64,000 nt of DNA from Myxacorys californica WJT36-NPBG1 (GTDB taxonomy: Bacteria > Cyanobacteriota > Cyanobacteriia > Leptolyngbyales > Leptolyngbyaceae), in assembly GCA_019359315.1 (NCBI GenBank), contig JAHHHO010000009.1, positions 62,001 through 126,000 of the forward strand. The letters run 5' to 3'. The stretch's first letter is position 1; every line of letters starts with the position of its first letter. A program made the position numbers and the translations under genes. The notes below the pieces were generated by a model that was given only the letters and a program-made list of their open reading frames with translations, was not told where the DNA came from and did no database searches. This document shows, piece by piece, positions 46,344 through 53,514 of the stretch.

Positions 46344-47045
46344 ATGGAAGATTGGCATAACTTTCGCGACACTAGTATGAGTGCATCGATTCGCACGGCT
46401 CCCTTCTTTGAAGGGTTGTCTGATGGGGTGGTGGACAAAGCGATCGCGCATGTAGTGATGCGGGCGCATCCCGCTAATCAAGTGATTTTGCTCGAAAACG
46501 ATTGGGGGAGTTCAGTCTATTTTATTTTGAGTGGGTGGGTGAAGATTCGGACGTACAACCTGGACGGCAAAGAAGTCACGCTCAATATTTTGGGTAAGGG
46601 AGAGCTATTTGGAGAAATGGCTCCTTTAGATGAAGTACCGCGCTCGACGGATGTGATCACGCTTGCTCCGACTGTGATTGGCAACATGCCCGCTCAAGAT
46701 TTTGTGCAGCTTCTCAACACCGAACCCCAGTCTGGAATTCGATTATCTCAGTTGATGGCGCGACGGCTGAGGCAGGTAAATCGTCGGCTCCGGTTGCGGG
46801 AGTCGGATAGCACGTCACGAGTTGCTGACATTTTGCTATTTCTTGCCGACGGTCAGGGGAAGCGCAGCGAGAACGGAACTGAGATTCCAAATCTGCCCCA
46901 CCGGGAACTCAGCAGCCTCAGTGGATTGGCACGAGAAACGGTGACGCGGGTGTTAAGTAAGCTAGAAAAGAAAGGCCTGATTGTGCGCGATCGTGACATT
47001 CTCTGCATCCCCGATACGCATGCCTTAGAACGAATGATGATCTAG
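46344..47045 (+). CDS. Crp/Fnr family transcriptional regulator
   Basis: A 233-aa regulator with an N-terminal cyclic-nucleotide-binding-like barrel (NQVILLENDWGSSVYFILSG, LNILGKGELFGEMAPLDEVP) and a C-terminal winged helix with HTH (PHRELSSLSGLARETVTRVL then SKLEKKGLI). The GELFGEMAxL segment includes the Glu seen in cAMP pockets, but a ligand cannot be confirmed. Distinct from NtcA by length and N-terminus. Target genes unknown. A palindrome upstream may allow autoregulation. The convergent MBL gene overlaps its end by 4 bases. Confidence 0.9.
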   Translation: MEDWHNFRDTSMSASIRTAPFFEGLSDGVVDKAIAHVVMRAHPANQVILLENDWGSSVYFILSGWVKIRTYNLDGKEVTLNILGKGELFGEMAPLDEVPRSTDVITLAPTVIGNMPAQDFVQLLNTEPQSGIRLSQLMARRLRQVNRRLRLRESDSTSRVADILLFLADGQGKRSENGTEIPNLPHRELSSLSGLARETVTRVLSKLEKKGLIVRDRDILCIPDTHALERMMI

Positions 47046-47731
47046 AGCAACGGCACAGTCGTGAGGCAGGCGTCTAAATCAAGATGCGCCAGTTTCACGT
47101 AGGCCTGGTCGATCGCAGATTTTCCTCGCAAGAATCCGATGCTTGCACCAGGGCAGATAAAATTCAACGTTTCCGGCGTGAATTGATCCAATAGCGATCG
47201 CACGTGACGAATTTGGCGCTTCCAATGAAATGTTTTCGCGGTTCTAAGAGGCGTGGGGTTGCCTTGACGATCGCTCAGCAGATGTCGCCCCGAAAATAGC
47301 ACTCCACCACAAGCATTGAGGTATAAGCAAGATGAGCCTGGAGAATGTCCGGGAGTCCAAAGTGCTCGAGCATCAGAGCTTAGAGCAAATTCTTGCTGAA
47401 ACGGTGTTAGGGCTAACCCTGGCAGCAAGTAGGCTTCCTGTTCTTGAATGAATATTTCACACTGAAAGGCGTGTTGAATCTCGCTCACTTTGCCGATGCC
47501 GCCGCGGTGAGTTAAAAGGAGCGATCGCACGCCACCTTGAGCATGCAAAAACTGCTGATTTGCGTCATCCCAGGCAGGACAATCAATCAGAATGTTTCCC
47601 TCTTTTTCTACAATGAGATAAGCGGTTCCTCCCAGTGTGTCACGATTAGGAGGAAAGGCGTAAATAGTAGTGTGAGGACAGGATGGCTCGACGTCATCCA
47701 GCACACGGCGGGGTTGCTTTAGGGAAGGCAC
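47042..47731 (-). CDS. Metallo-beta-lactamase-fold protein with lost HxHxDH motif
   Basis: A 229-aa protein of the MBL fold: GGTAYLIVEKEGNILIDCP, LLLTHRGGIGK, LWTPGHSPGSSCLYL and GVLFSGRHLLSD. The zinc motif THxHxDH expected after LLLTH is THRGGIGK here, so one His and the Asp/His are gone, although the TPGHSPG His is kept. It may bind a single metal or be catalytically dead. Ferredoxin-type or hydrolase function cannot be claimed. Confidence 0.82.
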   Translation of the reverse strand: MPSLKQPRRVLDDVEPSCPHTTIYAFPPNRDTLGGTAYLIVEKEGNILIDCPAWDDANQQFLHAQGGVRSLLLTHRGGIGKVSEIQHAFQCEIFIQEQEAYLLPGLALTPFQQEFALSSDARALWTPGHSPGSSCLYLNACGGVLFSGRHLLSDRQGNPTPLRTAKTFHWKRQIRHVRSLLDQFTPETLNFICPGASIGFLRGKSAIDQAYVKLAHLDLDACLTTVPLL

Positions 47732-48126: not shown

Positions 48127-49641
48127 ATGATCTGGTTACTGCTACTTGGGTTAATCACCTATTTTGTTGTGCAACGGGTGAGTGGTATCACTCGCACTCC
48201 CATTTGGCTCTTGTGGCTAGTAGCGATGATGCCTGCACTGATCCTGGGAGCGTGGGCGATCGCGCATCGAGGTCAGCGCGTGATGCCAAGGGAACTTGTG
48301 ATCGCGCTGTTCGTTGGCTGCCTGGTGCTCTACGTATTTTTAATTCGATGGGGACGAATTGCAAAGCCTGTGCAAACGCCCCGGAATGATTCTGCCCTTG
48401 ATCCGATCGCTCCGCAACCGTTAAATCTTCCTGAACCAACGCCAGAAATTCAAGCAGAGCAACCGTTGCGTCCCATTACCCAAGATGAAGAAGATCGGCT
48501 GCAAGGGTGTTTTCTATGGTCAATCTATTATTTGCAGCATATTGAATATCGGCCCCAAGCGGTGATCTGTCGGGGCAAGCTCCGGGCGACGCCAGAAATT
48601 GCCTATCGAACGGTTCGGGAGAACATTGAGGCTCAGTTTAGCGATCGCTTCTACGTCGTTTTCCAAGAAGGGCATCGCACCGATCCGTTTTTTGCTCTCG
48701 TTCCCAATCCCTACTCTCAAGTTAAAGAGCCTCAAACCAATCTGTTTTCGTCTGGCGCTAGAAGAAAGCTAATACGTCCTGGCATTGCTTCTGGATTGGC
48801 AGTGGTCACGCTAATTACAACAGTCTTGGCGGGGCTGCAAATGGCAGGTCGCGTGATTTCTAGCCCATTGGTGTTGATCGATGGGTTGCCCTATGCCCTA
48901 CCAGCGATGTCATTTTTTGCCCTGCGGGGAATTGGGCATTTTCTGACGACTCGGAAGTATAAAATTGCTGCCACGTTGCCGTATTTTATTCCCGTAATTC
49001 CATTGTCGTTTTTTCCGCTCGGAACCGTTGGGGCATTCATTCAGATTCGATCGCCGATTCCGGATCGCAAGGCACTGTTTGATGTCGGAGCTGTCGGTGC
49101 GATGCTGGGATTATGTATCAGCATTCCGCTTTTGGCGTGGGGATTGACGCAATCGGAAGTTGTGGGGCTCTCACAACGCGCTGGCATCTTTGACTTCTAC
49201 GCGCTCAATCCTCGGTTCTCGATCGTGTTTTCGCTCTTTAGTAAGCTCGCCTTTGGCAGTGAGTTTGTCGCACAGACAGCCATCAAGCCTCATCCATTTG
49301 CGATCGCGGGCTGGATCGGATTACTGTTCACAGCTTTTAATCTCATGCCAGTCGGACAGCTGGATGGCGGACGCATGATTCACGCTATGTTTGGGCAGCG
49401 CACCGGAGCGTTTATCGGTCAAATTGCGCGTTTTTTGCTGCTGGCGTTCTCGGTTGTGCAGCCTCATCTATTGGTGTGGGCGATTCTCTTGCTGTTGCTG
49501 CCTGCTATGGATGAACCCGCGCTGAATGACGTTACAGAGATCGATAGCTTTCGGGACGCCGTTGGACTGGCATTACTGACGGTCTTGATTTTGATTATTT
49601 TGCCAACTCCCAAATTTCTGATGAACTGGTTGCAAATTTAG
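48127..49641 (+). CDS. Site-2 protease (M50) family protein lacking HExxH
   Basis: A 504-aa polytopic protein of the M50/EGY-like S2P family (length, YKIAATLPYFIPV, TVGAFIQIRSPIPDRKALFD, FNLMPVGQLDGGRMIHAMFG). The HExxH zinc motif expected before the TLPYFIPV segment is replaced by RGIGH (residues 267-271), losing the first His and the catalytic Glu. The downstream Asp of NLMPVGQLDGG (near 413) is kept. It is therefore likely a pseudoprotease, as described for plastid EGY3. The N-terminal 230 residues include two spans and a soluble domain. Confidence 0.9.
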   Translation: MIWLLLLGLITYFVVQRVSGITRTPIWLLWLVAMMPALILGAWAIAHRGQRVMPRELVIALFVGCLVLYVFLIRWGRIAKPVQTPRNDSALDPIAPQPLNLPEPTPEIQAEQPLRPITQDEEDRLQGCFLWSIYYLQHIEYRPQAVICRGKLRATPEIAYRTVRENIEAQFSDRFYVVFQEGHRTDPFFALVPNPYSQVKEPQTNLFSSGARRKLIRPGIASGLAVVTLITTVLAGLQMAGRVISSPLVLIDGLPYALPAMSFFALRGIGHFLTTRKYKIAATLPYFIPVIPLSFFPLGTVGAFIQIRSPIPDRKALFDVGAVGAMLGLCISIPLLAWGLTQSEVVGLSQRAGIFDFYALNPRFSIVFSLFSKLAFGSEFVAQTAIKPHPFAIAGWIGLLFTAFNLMPVGQLDGGRMIHAMFGQRTGAFIGQIARFLLLAFSVVQPHLLVWAILLLLLPAMDEPALNDVTEIDSFRDAVGLALLTVLILIILPTPKFLMNWLQI

Positions 49642-49657: not shown

Positions 49658-50944
49658 ATGACTAAAAAGGCGGGTTCAGCCCAAGACTTGTATGCTCGTT
49701 GTCTGTCGCTGCTAATTTATCGGGAGGTATTTCACGATGAAGTCGGGCAAGCGTTTCTAGCGTTGCTAAAAGCGGCCTCGCAGCAAGATCAGCTAGAGGT
49801 TGTTCAAGCATACGGCGATTGGTTTTCTGCGATCGCTCACACGGGTAAAGGCTGGCAAGACTATCTGCTCAATCGAATGGTAAGTGTCGAAAATGCGTTT
49901 AGTCGAACCATTCAAACCACACCTCCAGAAGCGTTGCCGCCCGCTTTGGTTGATGCGATCGCGCATGATCTGCGAATTTTGCAGCAAATTTACCAGTGTT
50001 CGACGGCTCAGATAGCTCAATGGGTCAGCGATCAGACGCCTGCTTGGTCGGATCATCTCCTCTACCCAAAAACTTCACGGCAAAGGAGAATTGTTCAATT
50101 TAGCACTGACTTAGAGTTGCTGATAGATTGGGCAGCCGCCATTCCTGACTTGGCAGAGTTTTATCAGACCTTTGGAACGGGAATGGTTGCTCAGTACTCG
50201 GCGTTTCGATGGCAGAACGGGCAATTGAACGCGATCGCGCATCCTGATCCGCTCTTAATTGATTCTCTCGTGGGCTACGAAACTCAGCGAGATATGCTGG
50301 TCAAAAACACAGAATTTTTATTGGCTGGGTTGCCTGCGCTACATATTCTGCTATATGGAAGCCGTGGATCAGGGAAATCATCGCTTGTGAAGTCGTTGCT
50401 ACACGAGTATGACAACCTGAGGTTGATCGAAGTTGGCAAATCTGAACTGAAGGATTTGTCTACGATCGTCGAGCAGTTACGCAATCTGCCTCAGAAATTT
50501 ATTATCTTCGTCGATGACTTATCGTTTGAAGAAGATAACGACGCCTATAAAGCGCTAAAAGTTGTATTAGAAGGCAACCTCACCGCAAGACCTCAGAATG
50601 TCGTAGTCTACGCCACCTCCAATCGCCGCCACTTGATTCGAGAATTTTTTGATGAGCGTCCTCGCCCTAAAGACGCCGATGAAATTCACCATTGGGATAC
50701 GGTTCAGGAGAAATTGTCGTTTAGCGATCGCTTTGGGCTAACGCTCACCTTTGAACCTGCGGATCAAACCACCTATCTGAACATCGTTCGCCATCTAGCC
50801 GAGCAAGCCCAGGTTCTAATCAGTTCGGAAGAGTTAGAATTTCAGGCGTTGCAGTGGGCAACACGGCACAACGGGCGATCGGGGAGAACGGCTCGACAGT
50901 TTATTGACTTTCTCAAAGCAGATTTAACGCTGAGTCATTCCTAA
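49658..50944 (+). CDS. DUF815 AAA-type ATPase
   Basis: A 428-aa P-loop ATPase of the DUF815 family. A helical N-terminal part (1-200) precedes LLYGSRGSGKSSLVKSLLHE (Walker A), QKFIIFVDDLSFEEDNDAYK (Walker B) and NVVVYATSNRRHLIREFFDE (sensor 1). TARQFIDFLKADLTL is near the end. The role is unknown; proteins of this family are widespread. It starts 16 bases after the S2P gene and overlaps the menI start by 1 base, so the three form an operon. Confidence 0.92.
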   Translation: MTKKAGSAQDLYARCLSLLIYREVFHDEVGQAFLALLKAASQQDQLEVVQAYGDWFSAIAHTGKGWQDYLLNRMVSVENAFSRTIQTTPPEALPPALVDAIAHDLRILQQIYQCSTAQIAQWVSDQTPAWSDHLLYPKTSRQRRIVQFSTDLELLIDWAAAIPDLAEFYQTFGTGMVAQYSAFRWQNGQLNAIAHPDPLLIDSLVGYETQRDMLVKNTEFLLAGLPALHILLYGSRGSGKSSLVKSLLHEYDNLRLIEVGKSELKDLSTIVEQLRNLPQKFIIFVDDLSFEEDNDAYKALKVVLEGNLTARPQNVVVYATSNRRHLIREFFDERPRPKDADEIHHWDTVQEKLSFSDRFGLTLTFEPADQTTYLNIVRHLAEQAQVLISSEELEFQALQWATRHNGRSGRTARQFIDFLKADLTLSHS

Positions 50945-51369
50945 TGTCTTTTACGTACCCTCGGACAATTCGATTTCAAGAAACCGATGCGGCAGGAGTC
51001 GTCTACTTTGCAAATCTGTTGTCGATTTGTCATGAAGCCTATGAAGCGTCTCTTATCCAGTCAGGCATTGAGGCTCGACGATTTTTTGGCAAAGGTGAAG
51101 TGGCTGTGCCAATTGTTCATGCCAATGTAGATTTTCTAAAGCCGATGTACTGCGGCGATCGCATCTCACTCCAACTCACGCCTACTCAGATGAATGATTC
51201 CACGTTTGAAATTCAATATAACGTGTTCTTTGCGGCTTCAGGGCTGGATGAGAATCGTCTCATGAGTAAAGCTCTAACGCGACATGTTTGTATCGATCCC
51301 CAAACCAAAACTCGAAAAGCCCTTTCCTCTGAGCTTTTAAACTGGTTAGAGCAGACACGTTCTCAATAG
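50944..51369 (+). CDS. menI: 1,4-dihydroxy-2-naphthoyl-CoA hydrolase (hotdog thioesterase)
   Basis: A 141-aa 4HBT-like hotdog thioesterase that releases 1,4-dihydroxy-2-naphthoate for phylloquinone. The active-site segment is RFQETDAAGVVYFANLLSIC with the catalytic Asp in TDAAGVVYF; VDFLKPMYCGDRISL is also typical. The substrate is inferred from the cyanobacterial slr0204-type family, not proved here. The start ATG overlaps the DUF815 stop (TAATG). Confidence 0.85.
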   Translation: MSFTYPRTIRFQETDAAGVVYFANLLSICHEAYEASLIQSGIEARRFFGKGEVAVPIVHANVDFLKPMYCGDRISLQLTPTQMNDSTFEIQYNVFFAASGLDENRLMSKALTRHVCIDPQTKTRKALSSELLNWLEQTRSQ

Positions 51370-51398: not shown

Positions 51399-52064
51399 TC
51401 AGCCGATCAATTTGGAAGTTGTAGGTCTTTGTGCCTGATCTAAAACGGTTCCTACTAGACACGCGCTTGAAAGATTGGCTCCTTCAAGATTCGCATCTTG
51501 TAACTCAGCACAGAGCAGATTTGCGCCTGCCAAGTTTGCACCTGCCAAGTTTGCGCCTTGCAAATCGGCTTCCTCCAAATTAGCTTCACTCAGCACTGCG
51601 CCTTGCAAATCGGCTTGGGATAAATTTGCGCCATGGAGGTTGACACCAGTTAGATTTGCTCCGCGCAAGTCAGCTCCGCGTAAGTCAACCCCTTGAAGAC
51701 TAACGCCAATCAGGTTTGCGCCGCTTAAGAATGCACCCGCTAAGGTGGCACGGGTCAAGTGGGCACGCATGAGATTTGCCCCTCGTAGGTTACTGCCGCG
51801 CAGGTCTGCTTCAGTCAGGTTCGCTTGCATGAGATTTGCCCCGATCAGAGATGAGCGCAGGTCAGCCCCAACAAATTGACATCCAATGAGGTTAGACCCT
51901 TCGAGCGAGGCTCCTGATAGGTTTGCGCCCGACAGGTCTGCCCCCGATAGCCTAGCACCCGCCAAATTAACGCCAGTGAGATCAGCGTTCGATAAATCCT
52001 CATCCTGTAAGTCTACGCCTGCTAACTGTCTAAGCTTACCTGAGCGAATTGCTTGGAGATCCAT
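51399..52064 (-). CDS. Pentapeptide repeat protein
   Basis: A 221-aa protein made of about 35 A(D/N)LxG pentapeptides from residue 20 to 210 (for example LSGADLSGANLSGASLEGSN), forming a right-handed quadrilateral beta-helix. No extra catalytic domain, signal or membrane span was found. Some family members mimic DNA and bind gyrase, but most cyanobacterial ones have no known partner. It converges with menI. Confidence 0.93.
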   Translation of the reverse strand: MDLQAIRSGKLRQLAGVDLQDEDLSNADLTGVNLAGARLSGADLSGANLSGASLEGSNLIGCQFVGADLRSSLIGANLMQANLTEADLRGSNLRGANLMRAHLTRATLAGAFLSGANLIGVSLQGVDLRGADLRGANLTGVNLHGANLSQADLQGAVLSEANLEEADLQGANLAGANLAGANLLCAELQDANLEGANLSSACLVGTVLDQAQRPTTSKLIG

Positions 52065-52107: not shown

Positions 52108-53514
52108 TTATGACACGACCTGAGTTGCATCTAAACTGGCTAAGTCCAGCAAATCGTCATCGGAATGAGAATCTAGCAGCCACATGCCAGCCGCAATTTT
52201 TGGCAGATTCACTGAAAGATTCATCCCTTGTTGCATCGCACTGACCAGTAGCGACAGCGCTTCAACGAGTTTTGGATCCCAGCGCTCGTTCGTTTCGGCT
52301 TGACAAGCAGCAAACGCATCGGACAATGCTGTTTCAGTGCGAGCATGATCTTCGCTTGACCGAGCATCCGCGACCCGTTGCTGAAATGCGACTAACAGCC
52401 CTAAAATTCTGGACTCTAACGGAATTTCGTCTCCCGCAAGTCCAGCAGGCAGTCCTTGACCGTTCCACCATTCCGACTCGTGAGTAATAATGGTTGCGAT
52501 CGCTTTCAGTCGCTGCATGGTTCGTAGAATTTGCGCTCCCGGCACGATCGGGCAACTCAACGGCGTAGGCTGGTCATTATTCTGATGACCAAAATTCCCT
52601 GGACTGAGAACGCTATCAGATTGCAAGAAGCCCAACCGATGCAATAGCCCTGCTAACCGTAGTCGATTCATCTGCCACACGGGAAGATCCAATACCTGTC
52701 CCATTGCCTCGGCGAGGGTCGCAACTTCGGCGGCTGCCATTGGATTGCTGATGTCGGTTTGATCGATGAGCTGTGCCAATCGTAAAAAGGCTTGAAGCTC
52801 ATTTGAGACCAAATTGTTATCCAATCCTTCCTGATAACGATCGAGATGCTGTTGACCCGTTTGCAGATAATCGACAACTTTAGAGACGGCGGTATAGACT
52901 TCGTCGCGATCGCGCGTTTGAGCTTCCGCAATAATTGCCTTGACCTGTGACCGCAGGGAGTTGGCGAGGTCGGAGTTGTAGGAATCAATGTGAGCGATCG
53001 CAATCTCGACCGCTTCCCGAACCAGTTCTGCCTCAAACGTCCAGAACCCGTAAAACTTACGCTCTAAATCGTCTTTGGGAACTCCCCGAGCGCCGTAATC
53101 TTCCTCGGAAATCTCCTGACACAGCACCATCGCGGTATAAGTTGGCCCAAAGATCATCAGATGCCATTCTTGCGCGACTGGATCGCTCTTTTCTAGAGCA
53201 ACCAAATCCACATTCGCTTTTTGGCTGGTTGGATGTTCAGCAAAGCCCGTGTCAGGCGATGCCAAGATCGCGACGTGCTGGGCACGATCGGCGAGTTCGG
53301 CATAGCGATCGGCCTCTTCGAGATACCATTTCCCTCGCTGAAAGGCGGTGACGACAAGCGGCGCACTACTGCACGTCAGAATGCAGTCCTCAAGGGCATG
53401 ACACAGCGAAACAAGCGTATTTTTGTAATACACCCCAAAATTTAAGGGACGCTTACCCCCGCCTTCGGTCTGGTGAGCGAGTTTCAGATCTTGCAGAATT
53501 GAGCCTTCCAACAT
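52108..53514 (-). CDS. DICT sensory domain protein with degenerate HD-type domain
   Basis: A 468-aa protein. Residues 1-185 resemble the DICT domain (SILQDLKLAHQTEGGGKRPL near the start, then LVVTAFQRGKWYLEEADRYA). The C-terminal part (about 260-440) resembles an HD/HD-GYP phosphohydrolase: LRLAGLLHRLGFLQSD, IITHESEWWNGQGLPAGLAG and DEIPLESRILGLLVAFQQRV. The HD dyad is HR and the HHE motif is THE, so key metal ligands are missing. It may sense or bind a ligand rather than hydrolyse c-di-GMP. Confidence 0.78.
   Translation of the reverse strand: MLEGSILQDLKLAHQTEGGGKRPLNFGVYYKNTLVSLCHALEDCILTCSSAPLVVTAFQRGKWYLEEADRYAELADRAQHVAILASPDTGFAEHPTSQKANVDLVALEKSDPVAQEWHLMIFGPTYTAMVLCQEISEEDYGARGVPKDDLERKFYGFWTFEAELVREAVEIAIAHIDSYNSDLANSLRSQVKAIIAEAQTRDRDEVYTAVSKVVDYLQTGQQHLDRYQEGLDNNLVSNELQAFLRLAQLIDQTDISNPMAAAEVATLAEAMGQVLDLPVWQMNRLRLAGLLHRLGFLQSDSVLSPGNFGHQNNDQPTPLSCPIVPGAQILRTMQRLKAIATIITHESEWWNGQGLPAGLAGDEIPLESRILGLLVAFQQRVADARSSEDHARTETALSDAFAACQAETNERWDPKLVEALSLLVSAMQQGMNLSVNLPKIAAGMWLLDSHSDDDLLDLASLDATQVVS

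Follow-up and report, generated by a model that had tools for sequence, protein, structure and literature searches.

Proteases of the S2P family (peptidase family M50) bind zinc through both histidines of the HExxH motif and the aspartate of the LDG motif, and in SpoIVFB an E-to-Q change abolishes activity (PMC11486902). In Synechocystis, Slr0643 has been reported to be essential for acid acclimation (PMC4284730). Plant EGY3 has been called the sole pseudoenzyme of the family and described as confined to plants (PMC9355673, 2022). We found no inactive members in the available text of a review of bacterial S2Ps (PMC10202637) and no bacterial S2P pseudoprotease in the literature searched, a body that had preprints and most subscription journals outside it, and an earlier mention is possible. 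Here we describe a cyanobacterial gene that probably encodes such a protein.

The gene lies in a 64,000-nucleotide stretch of Myxacorys californica DNA (the window) and belongs to a genome of 5.97 Mb that is 99.98% complete (Table 1). As the initial annotation had stated, the codons for residues 267-271 give RGIGH at the place of HExxH, and the landmarks of the family, TLPYFIPV, RSPIPDRKALFDVG and NLMPVGQLDGG, are all present in the 504-aa protein. The match to the Pfam Peptidase_M50 profile lies above the cut-off of 27.2 bits, and this significant match together with the LDG motif containing D413 places the protein in the S2P fold family. The match begins at profile position 16 and leaves the HExxH part uncovered; that of a canonical relative (locus L041) begins at position 3 and scores 80 bits. 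The proline of the GP motif is also lost (A325), and DGGH has become DGGR. A search of NCBIfam at E 0.001 named no family for the protein, and a profile search of PDB sequences with it returned nothing at E 0.01. The minus-strand reading of the gene, translated in one frame, was full of stops, and opposite-strand coding was rejected.

Table 1. Features of the S2P locus, in positions of the window.
Feature	Position	Strand	Remarks
S2P/M50-family gene, predicted pseudoprotease	48127..49641	+	504 aa, ATG start; PF02163, 45.9 bits
F263-F264 codons	48913..48918	+	Fixed in 20/20 clade genomes; active orthologs (n = 118) have I/V and L/V
Codons 267-271, CGG GGA ATT GGG CAT (RGIGH)	48925..48939	+	HExxH expected here; from the ORF reading
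A325 codon (GP motif)	49099..49101	+	Pro at this position in 97% of active orthologs (n = 118); coordinate from the ORF start
Codons 412-416, LDGGR	49360..49374	+	Third zinc-ligand Asp413 retained; H416 replaced by R
DUF815 (PF05673) AAA+ ATPase gene	49658..50944	+	428 aa, 316.9 bits; 16 bp downstream of the S2P gene; candidate partner
4HBT-type acyl-CoA thioesterase gene	50944..51369	+	Third in the apparent operon; overlaps the ATPase gene at TAATG
Divergent MBL-fold gene	47042..47731	-	Upstream; profile match; marks a conserved locus

Protein matches were found in 128 of 386 genomes of the phylum and in all 42 genomes of the family, the order-level search returning the identical 42. An ortholog was present in 41 of the family genomes, and genome G389 (82% complete) had the paralog only. 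The published primer pair for slr0643 fits an ortholog (locus L151) with 5 mismatches in 38, facing and 126 bp apart, the next best fit having 10; these primer sequences suggest that Slr0643 is probably of the same ortholog group. The pair for sll0862 fits poorly everywhere (best 9/37, tied between a paralog and orthologs). The Slr0643-type label of the initial annotation is probably right on moderate evidence. We collected 223 ortholog rows (222 genomes, with G191 twice) from part of the genomes with a match, an ortholog not coming from every one. Most of this group, 176 rows, have HExxH and the Asp and 47 do not, whereas the Myxacorys protein has RGIGH and DGGR and lacks the GP motif. Five rows were set aside as incomplete (G475 and G448) or doubtful (G438, together with G191a and G280, whose LMPAGQ motif looks paralog-like to us), and a tree was built from the other 218 (42 lost and 176 intact) with the catalytic columns left out of the alignment.

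On this midpoint-rooted tree, 20 genomes of the window's family form one group in which the motif is lost throughout, and in a more careful tree of 53 rows (53 of 148 genomes) the same 20 stay together and are separated from the intact family members and the outgroups. The initial annotation had proposed to count genomes with the same substitution: RGIGH occurs in 2 of the 20 clade genomes and R267 in every one. REGGH (5) and RSFGQ (4) are the most frequent motifs of the clade, and RSLGS, RSLGC, RAAGH, RSIGQ, RSLGQ, RSFGH, RSFGY, RELGY and RELGH occur in one genome each. Two further losses in the family lie outside the clade (HKFSQ in G060 and HELGR in G388), and another 20 lost rows on the tree lie beyond the family, with the motifs RELAN, REMVR, RELGR (4), QKFSH, QKFSN, YHFSQ, YEVGH, HELGS, HEWTR (2), GELSH, KDVVK (2), REVGQ (2), RAIAQ and RGIAQ. 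Across the tree of 218 rows the state of the zinc site changes about 12 times; starred branches force at least 7 of these changes, and the exact number of losses is uncertain as some deep joins involve long branches. Asp413 of LDGG is retained in 41 of 42 lost and in all 176 active proteins; two lost orthologs are also without it (LPGG in G438, locus L262, and LNGG in G490, locus L232). Arginine at position 267 changes state 6 times on the tree; since a single transition turns His into Arg, we make no claim that it is favoured in itself. R267 and the loss of H416 go together in the expected direction, as do the loss of the site and that of P325, but neither link reaches significance across independent, well-supported pairs (median p 0.125 in each case).

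A second, canonical copy in the genome had been suggested as something to look for, and canonical S2P genes do exist elsewhere in it: three of its four M50 loci retain HELGH, namely a 510-aa paralog, a 384-aa gene that we label RseP-like, and a 416-aa gene. A search of the genome with the protein returned only the gene itself and the paralog, which is 31% identical, and no compensating duplicate of the same ortholog was found. The genome thus has a single ortholog, and it is the usual enzyme itself that was converted, with no spare duplicate. Paralogs were read in 34 genomes, comprising the whole clade of 20 and another 14, and HExxH and DG are found in 31 of these; HELGH stands in a broken frame in G394, and the motif is lost in G344 and G497. 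HExxH of the paralog is retained in all 20 clade genomes, and LDGG was also read in 19 of them, the paralog of G394 (locus L288) being in two pieces, possibly through a frameshift or an assembly fault. Arg has also taken the place of the first His in the second S2P paralog, canonical in other respects, of a deep-branching family, f26 (RELAM in G344, loci L237 and L242; similar in G191, loci L268 and L270, and in G280, locus L271), and both S2P proteins thus look inactive in G344 and G191.

Nei-Gojobori dN/dS was 0.031-0.086 in 11 pairs within the clade and 0.038-0.087 in 8 active pairs, a ninth being saturated; the ratios are rough because many dS values exceed 0.8, several exceed 1 and some are saturated. 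R267 is spelled by five codons among the 20 genomes (CGA 10, CGG 5, CGT 3, AGA 1, CGC 1), and so is R416. Position 268 has become S in 10, G in 2 and A in 1, with E kept in 7, and position 271 is H in 10, Q in 6, Y in 2, S in 1 and C in 1, such that E268 is gone in 13 genomes and H271 in 10. R267 is held while the remainder of the old motif drifts. The low dN/dS and the maintenance of R267 through synonymous codon turnover agree with the view of the initial annotation that the loss is functional and not decay, and the frequent random mutation across the gene that would speak against it is not what we see, the values being like those of intact relatives. The best match in each of the 20 clade genomes has no internal stop listed. 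The S2P gene of G395 was read in two overlapping pieces (loci L084 and L289) and may be frameshifted or misassembled. Clade proteins have a larger mean distance to the outgroups than active family members (1.66 vs 1.35), suggesting that some relaxation is possible.

We also compared sites between 118 active orthologs and the 20 clade genomes, with the 10 other lost genomes of the 148 left out. Positions 263, 264, 267, 268, 271, 272, 275, 325, 421, 432, 472 and 490 are conserved in at least 95% of the active proteins and in less than 60% of the clade, and 81 other sites, D413 among them, reach at least 95% in both sets. Residues fixed in the clade and found in less than 30% of the active proteins are I78, F263, F264, R267, P297, W396, F401, F404, R416, H447, L454 and L458, of which P297, F404 and H447 also occur in active family members such as that of locus L041. 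Close to the catalytic segments, changed sites are over-represented (6/9 vs 19/81, Fisher p 0.012, with the three motif positions left out and windows of our own choosing). Judged from the sequences, the old active site of the clade is remodelled and then fixed, with F263, F264, R267, A/S325, W396, F401 and R416.

The apparent operon described in the initial annotation is borne out by the spacing of the three genes. The MBL-fold gene was found upstream at 119 of 140 ortholog loci scanned (119 of 135 when 700 bp or more of sequence upstream was required), and in active and lost genomes alike it serves as a marker of the locus. The DUF815 ATPase gene is directly downstream on the same strand in 20/20 clade genomes, with gaps of -25 to 333 bp between aligned ends, and is beside the S2P gene in 0/103 active and 0/11 other lost genomes (0/114 together). 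This count takes genomes in which the sequence runs on for 500 bp or more beyond the gene and leaves out 9 locus-only rows, of which three with the ATPase are genomes G288, G413 and G414 again. DUF815 genes are otherwise widespread (40/41 family and 138/386 phylum genomes, mostly one match per genome), suggesting that an older gene, perhaps with its neighbour, joined the S2P gene on the branch of zinc-site loss. The joining is one event, and what makes it notable is its persistence across 20 genomes. The ATPase and thioesterase genes are also close neighbours away from S2P (loci L310 and L345, gaps of 41 and 95 bp), implying that the pair may predate the link to S2P. The DUF815 gene of G409 (locus L297) contains one in-frame TGA, which may reflect a frameshift or a fault of the assembly. 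Scans for promoters and terminators gave no more hits than shuffled sequence, and the literature searched for DUF815 yielded only single mentions, apparently unrelated. Past the operon lie a gene that we read as coding for a pentapeptide-like repeat protein (51399-52064) and a minus-strand gene with DICT, CHASE6_C and HD domains (52108-53514).

From these observations, we favour, with a probability of roughly 0.7, the reading that the single ortholog, which is probably of the Slr0643 type, is a true S2P pseudoprotease maintained by purifying selection, that its zinc site was lost in the ancestor of the 20-genome clade and that its role is client-binding and non-catalytic. The loss of catalytic residues in a gene held by selection is the pattern of a pseudoenzyme, and inactivity is predicted from it. 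The absence of H267 and E268 makes cleavage very unlikely; the altered protein would hold no catalytic zinc and would not cleave. The LDGG, TLPYF and RSPIP segments are preserved, as are N-terminal sites, suggesting that the client-binding scaffold is retained. This scaffold with its conserved N-terminal region would still bind transmembrane clients, and the protein would serve as an adaptor, a holdase or a receptor in the membrane and might be coupled to the ATPase. R267, and possibly R416 as well, may sit where the metal was and form a pair with D413, a contact that is a guess because the AlphaFold2 model (10-row alignment, mean pLDDT 49) is unusable. Since the same ortholog lost its site about 12 times, the active ancestor may already have had a non-catalytic role, with cleavage an optional addition. 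The initial annotation did not mention A325 or DGGR, nor that the loss recurs in other cyanobacteria, that the remodelled pocket is shared by the whole clade or that the AAA+ neighbour is specific to it.

Several other explanations have to be weighed against this one. A decaying gene or a sequencing error would fit the loss of several catalytic residues, the somewhat longer distances and the broken frame in G395. However, independent genomes agree and selection has acted, with dN/dS of about 0.03-0.09, 81 conserved sites kept and no internal stop listed in the clade; Myxacorys almedinensis A, the nearest named relative with the gene, has an ortholog that is 83% identical with the same RGIGH, making the sequencing error that had been named as a refutation very unlikely. 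We therefore rule out both a sequencing error and a pseudogene, and this explanation is almost certainly wrong. It is also highly improbable that the protein is still active or binds metal through other ligands. H271 in 10/20 and E268 in 7/20 genomes, together with the conserved H419 and D413, speak for it, but P325 and H416 are lost, the catalytic Glu is absent in 13/20, and no new His, Asp or Glu has been fixed near the site, the fixed H447 being found in active relatives as well.

A regulator of active S2Ps, as proposed in the initial annotation, would pair with the HELGH paralog or compete for its clients, in the manner of iRhoms, inactive rhomboid relatives that inhibit rhomboid-dependent signalling (PMC3149277), and the retention of HExxH by the paralog throughout the clade is consistent with this. 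Yet the two proteins are merely 31% identical and the paralog coexists with an active ortholog in other genomes too, and we consider such regulation unlikely. The ATPase would come in by a special form of the preferred explanation, in which membrane clients bound by the pseudoprotease are passed on to the downstream DUF815 ATPase in the style of Derlins, which are rhomboid pseudoproteases, and Cdc48/p97; Derlins do recruit Cdc48 (PMC8641752). The adjacency confined to the clade, and the presence of DUF815 genes away from the ortholog elsewhere, speak for this adaptor, whereas the single joining event, which may reflect mere shared transcription, and the missing neighbour in all 11 other lost lineages tested speak against it. 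In a comparison of 19 clade and 45 other ATPase sequences, no residue proved to be newly fixed in the clade, which counts against tight co-adaptation, and we give the adaptor a rather low probability. In its boldest version, the protein would be a bacterial counterpart of Derlin-Cdc48 from another protease fold, its emptied, arginine-filled site binding transmembrane clients and passing them to a dedicated DUF815 ATPase joined on the branch of catalysis loss, an analogy that we regard as a long shot.

The preferred reading, a client-binding pseudoprotease, suggests that a group of related species has kept an intact, non-cutting protein beside the gene of an ATP-driven motor for what is now a different job. 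Repeated loss in a single ortholog with no spare duplicate argues for a useful function of this S2P that requires no cutting. The motifs of the clade form a natural series that runs from RELGH by way of REGGH and RAAGH to RSLGS and RGIGH, and the clade also supplies a candidate partner in DUF815, a domain of unknown function. Loss of catalysis with retention of the gene has been described in the S2P family for plant EGY3; here it is bacterial, repeated and in a single ortholog. The comparison with EGY3 made in the initial annotation is a fair one of kind, based on published descriptions: EGY3, like the Myxacorys protein, is an S2P homolog without HExxH that selection has maintained, and both belong to a photosynthetic membrane system (PMC10978774, PMC9355673). 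Unlike the Myxacorys protein, EGY3 is a chloroplast protein beside other EGY proteases, while the Myxacorys protein is bacterial, is the sole ortholog and has an AAA+ neighbour. The iRhoms and Derlins are similar in that the scaffold of an inactive intramembrane protease is retained for client handling, and Derlins work with an AAA+ ATPase (PMC8641752); they differ in being eukaryotic and of an unrelated serine-protease fold, and the AAA+ link of the Myxacorys protein is one of gene adjacency.
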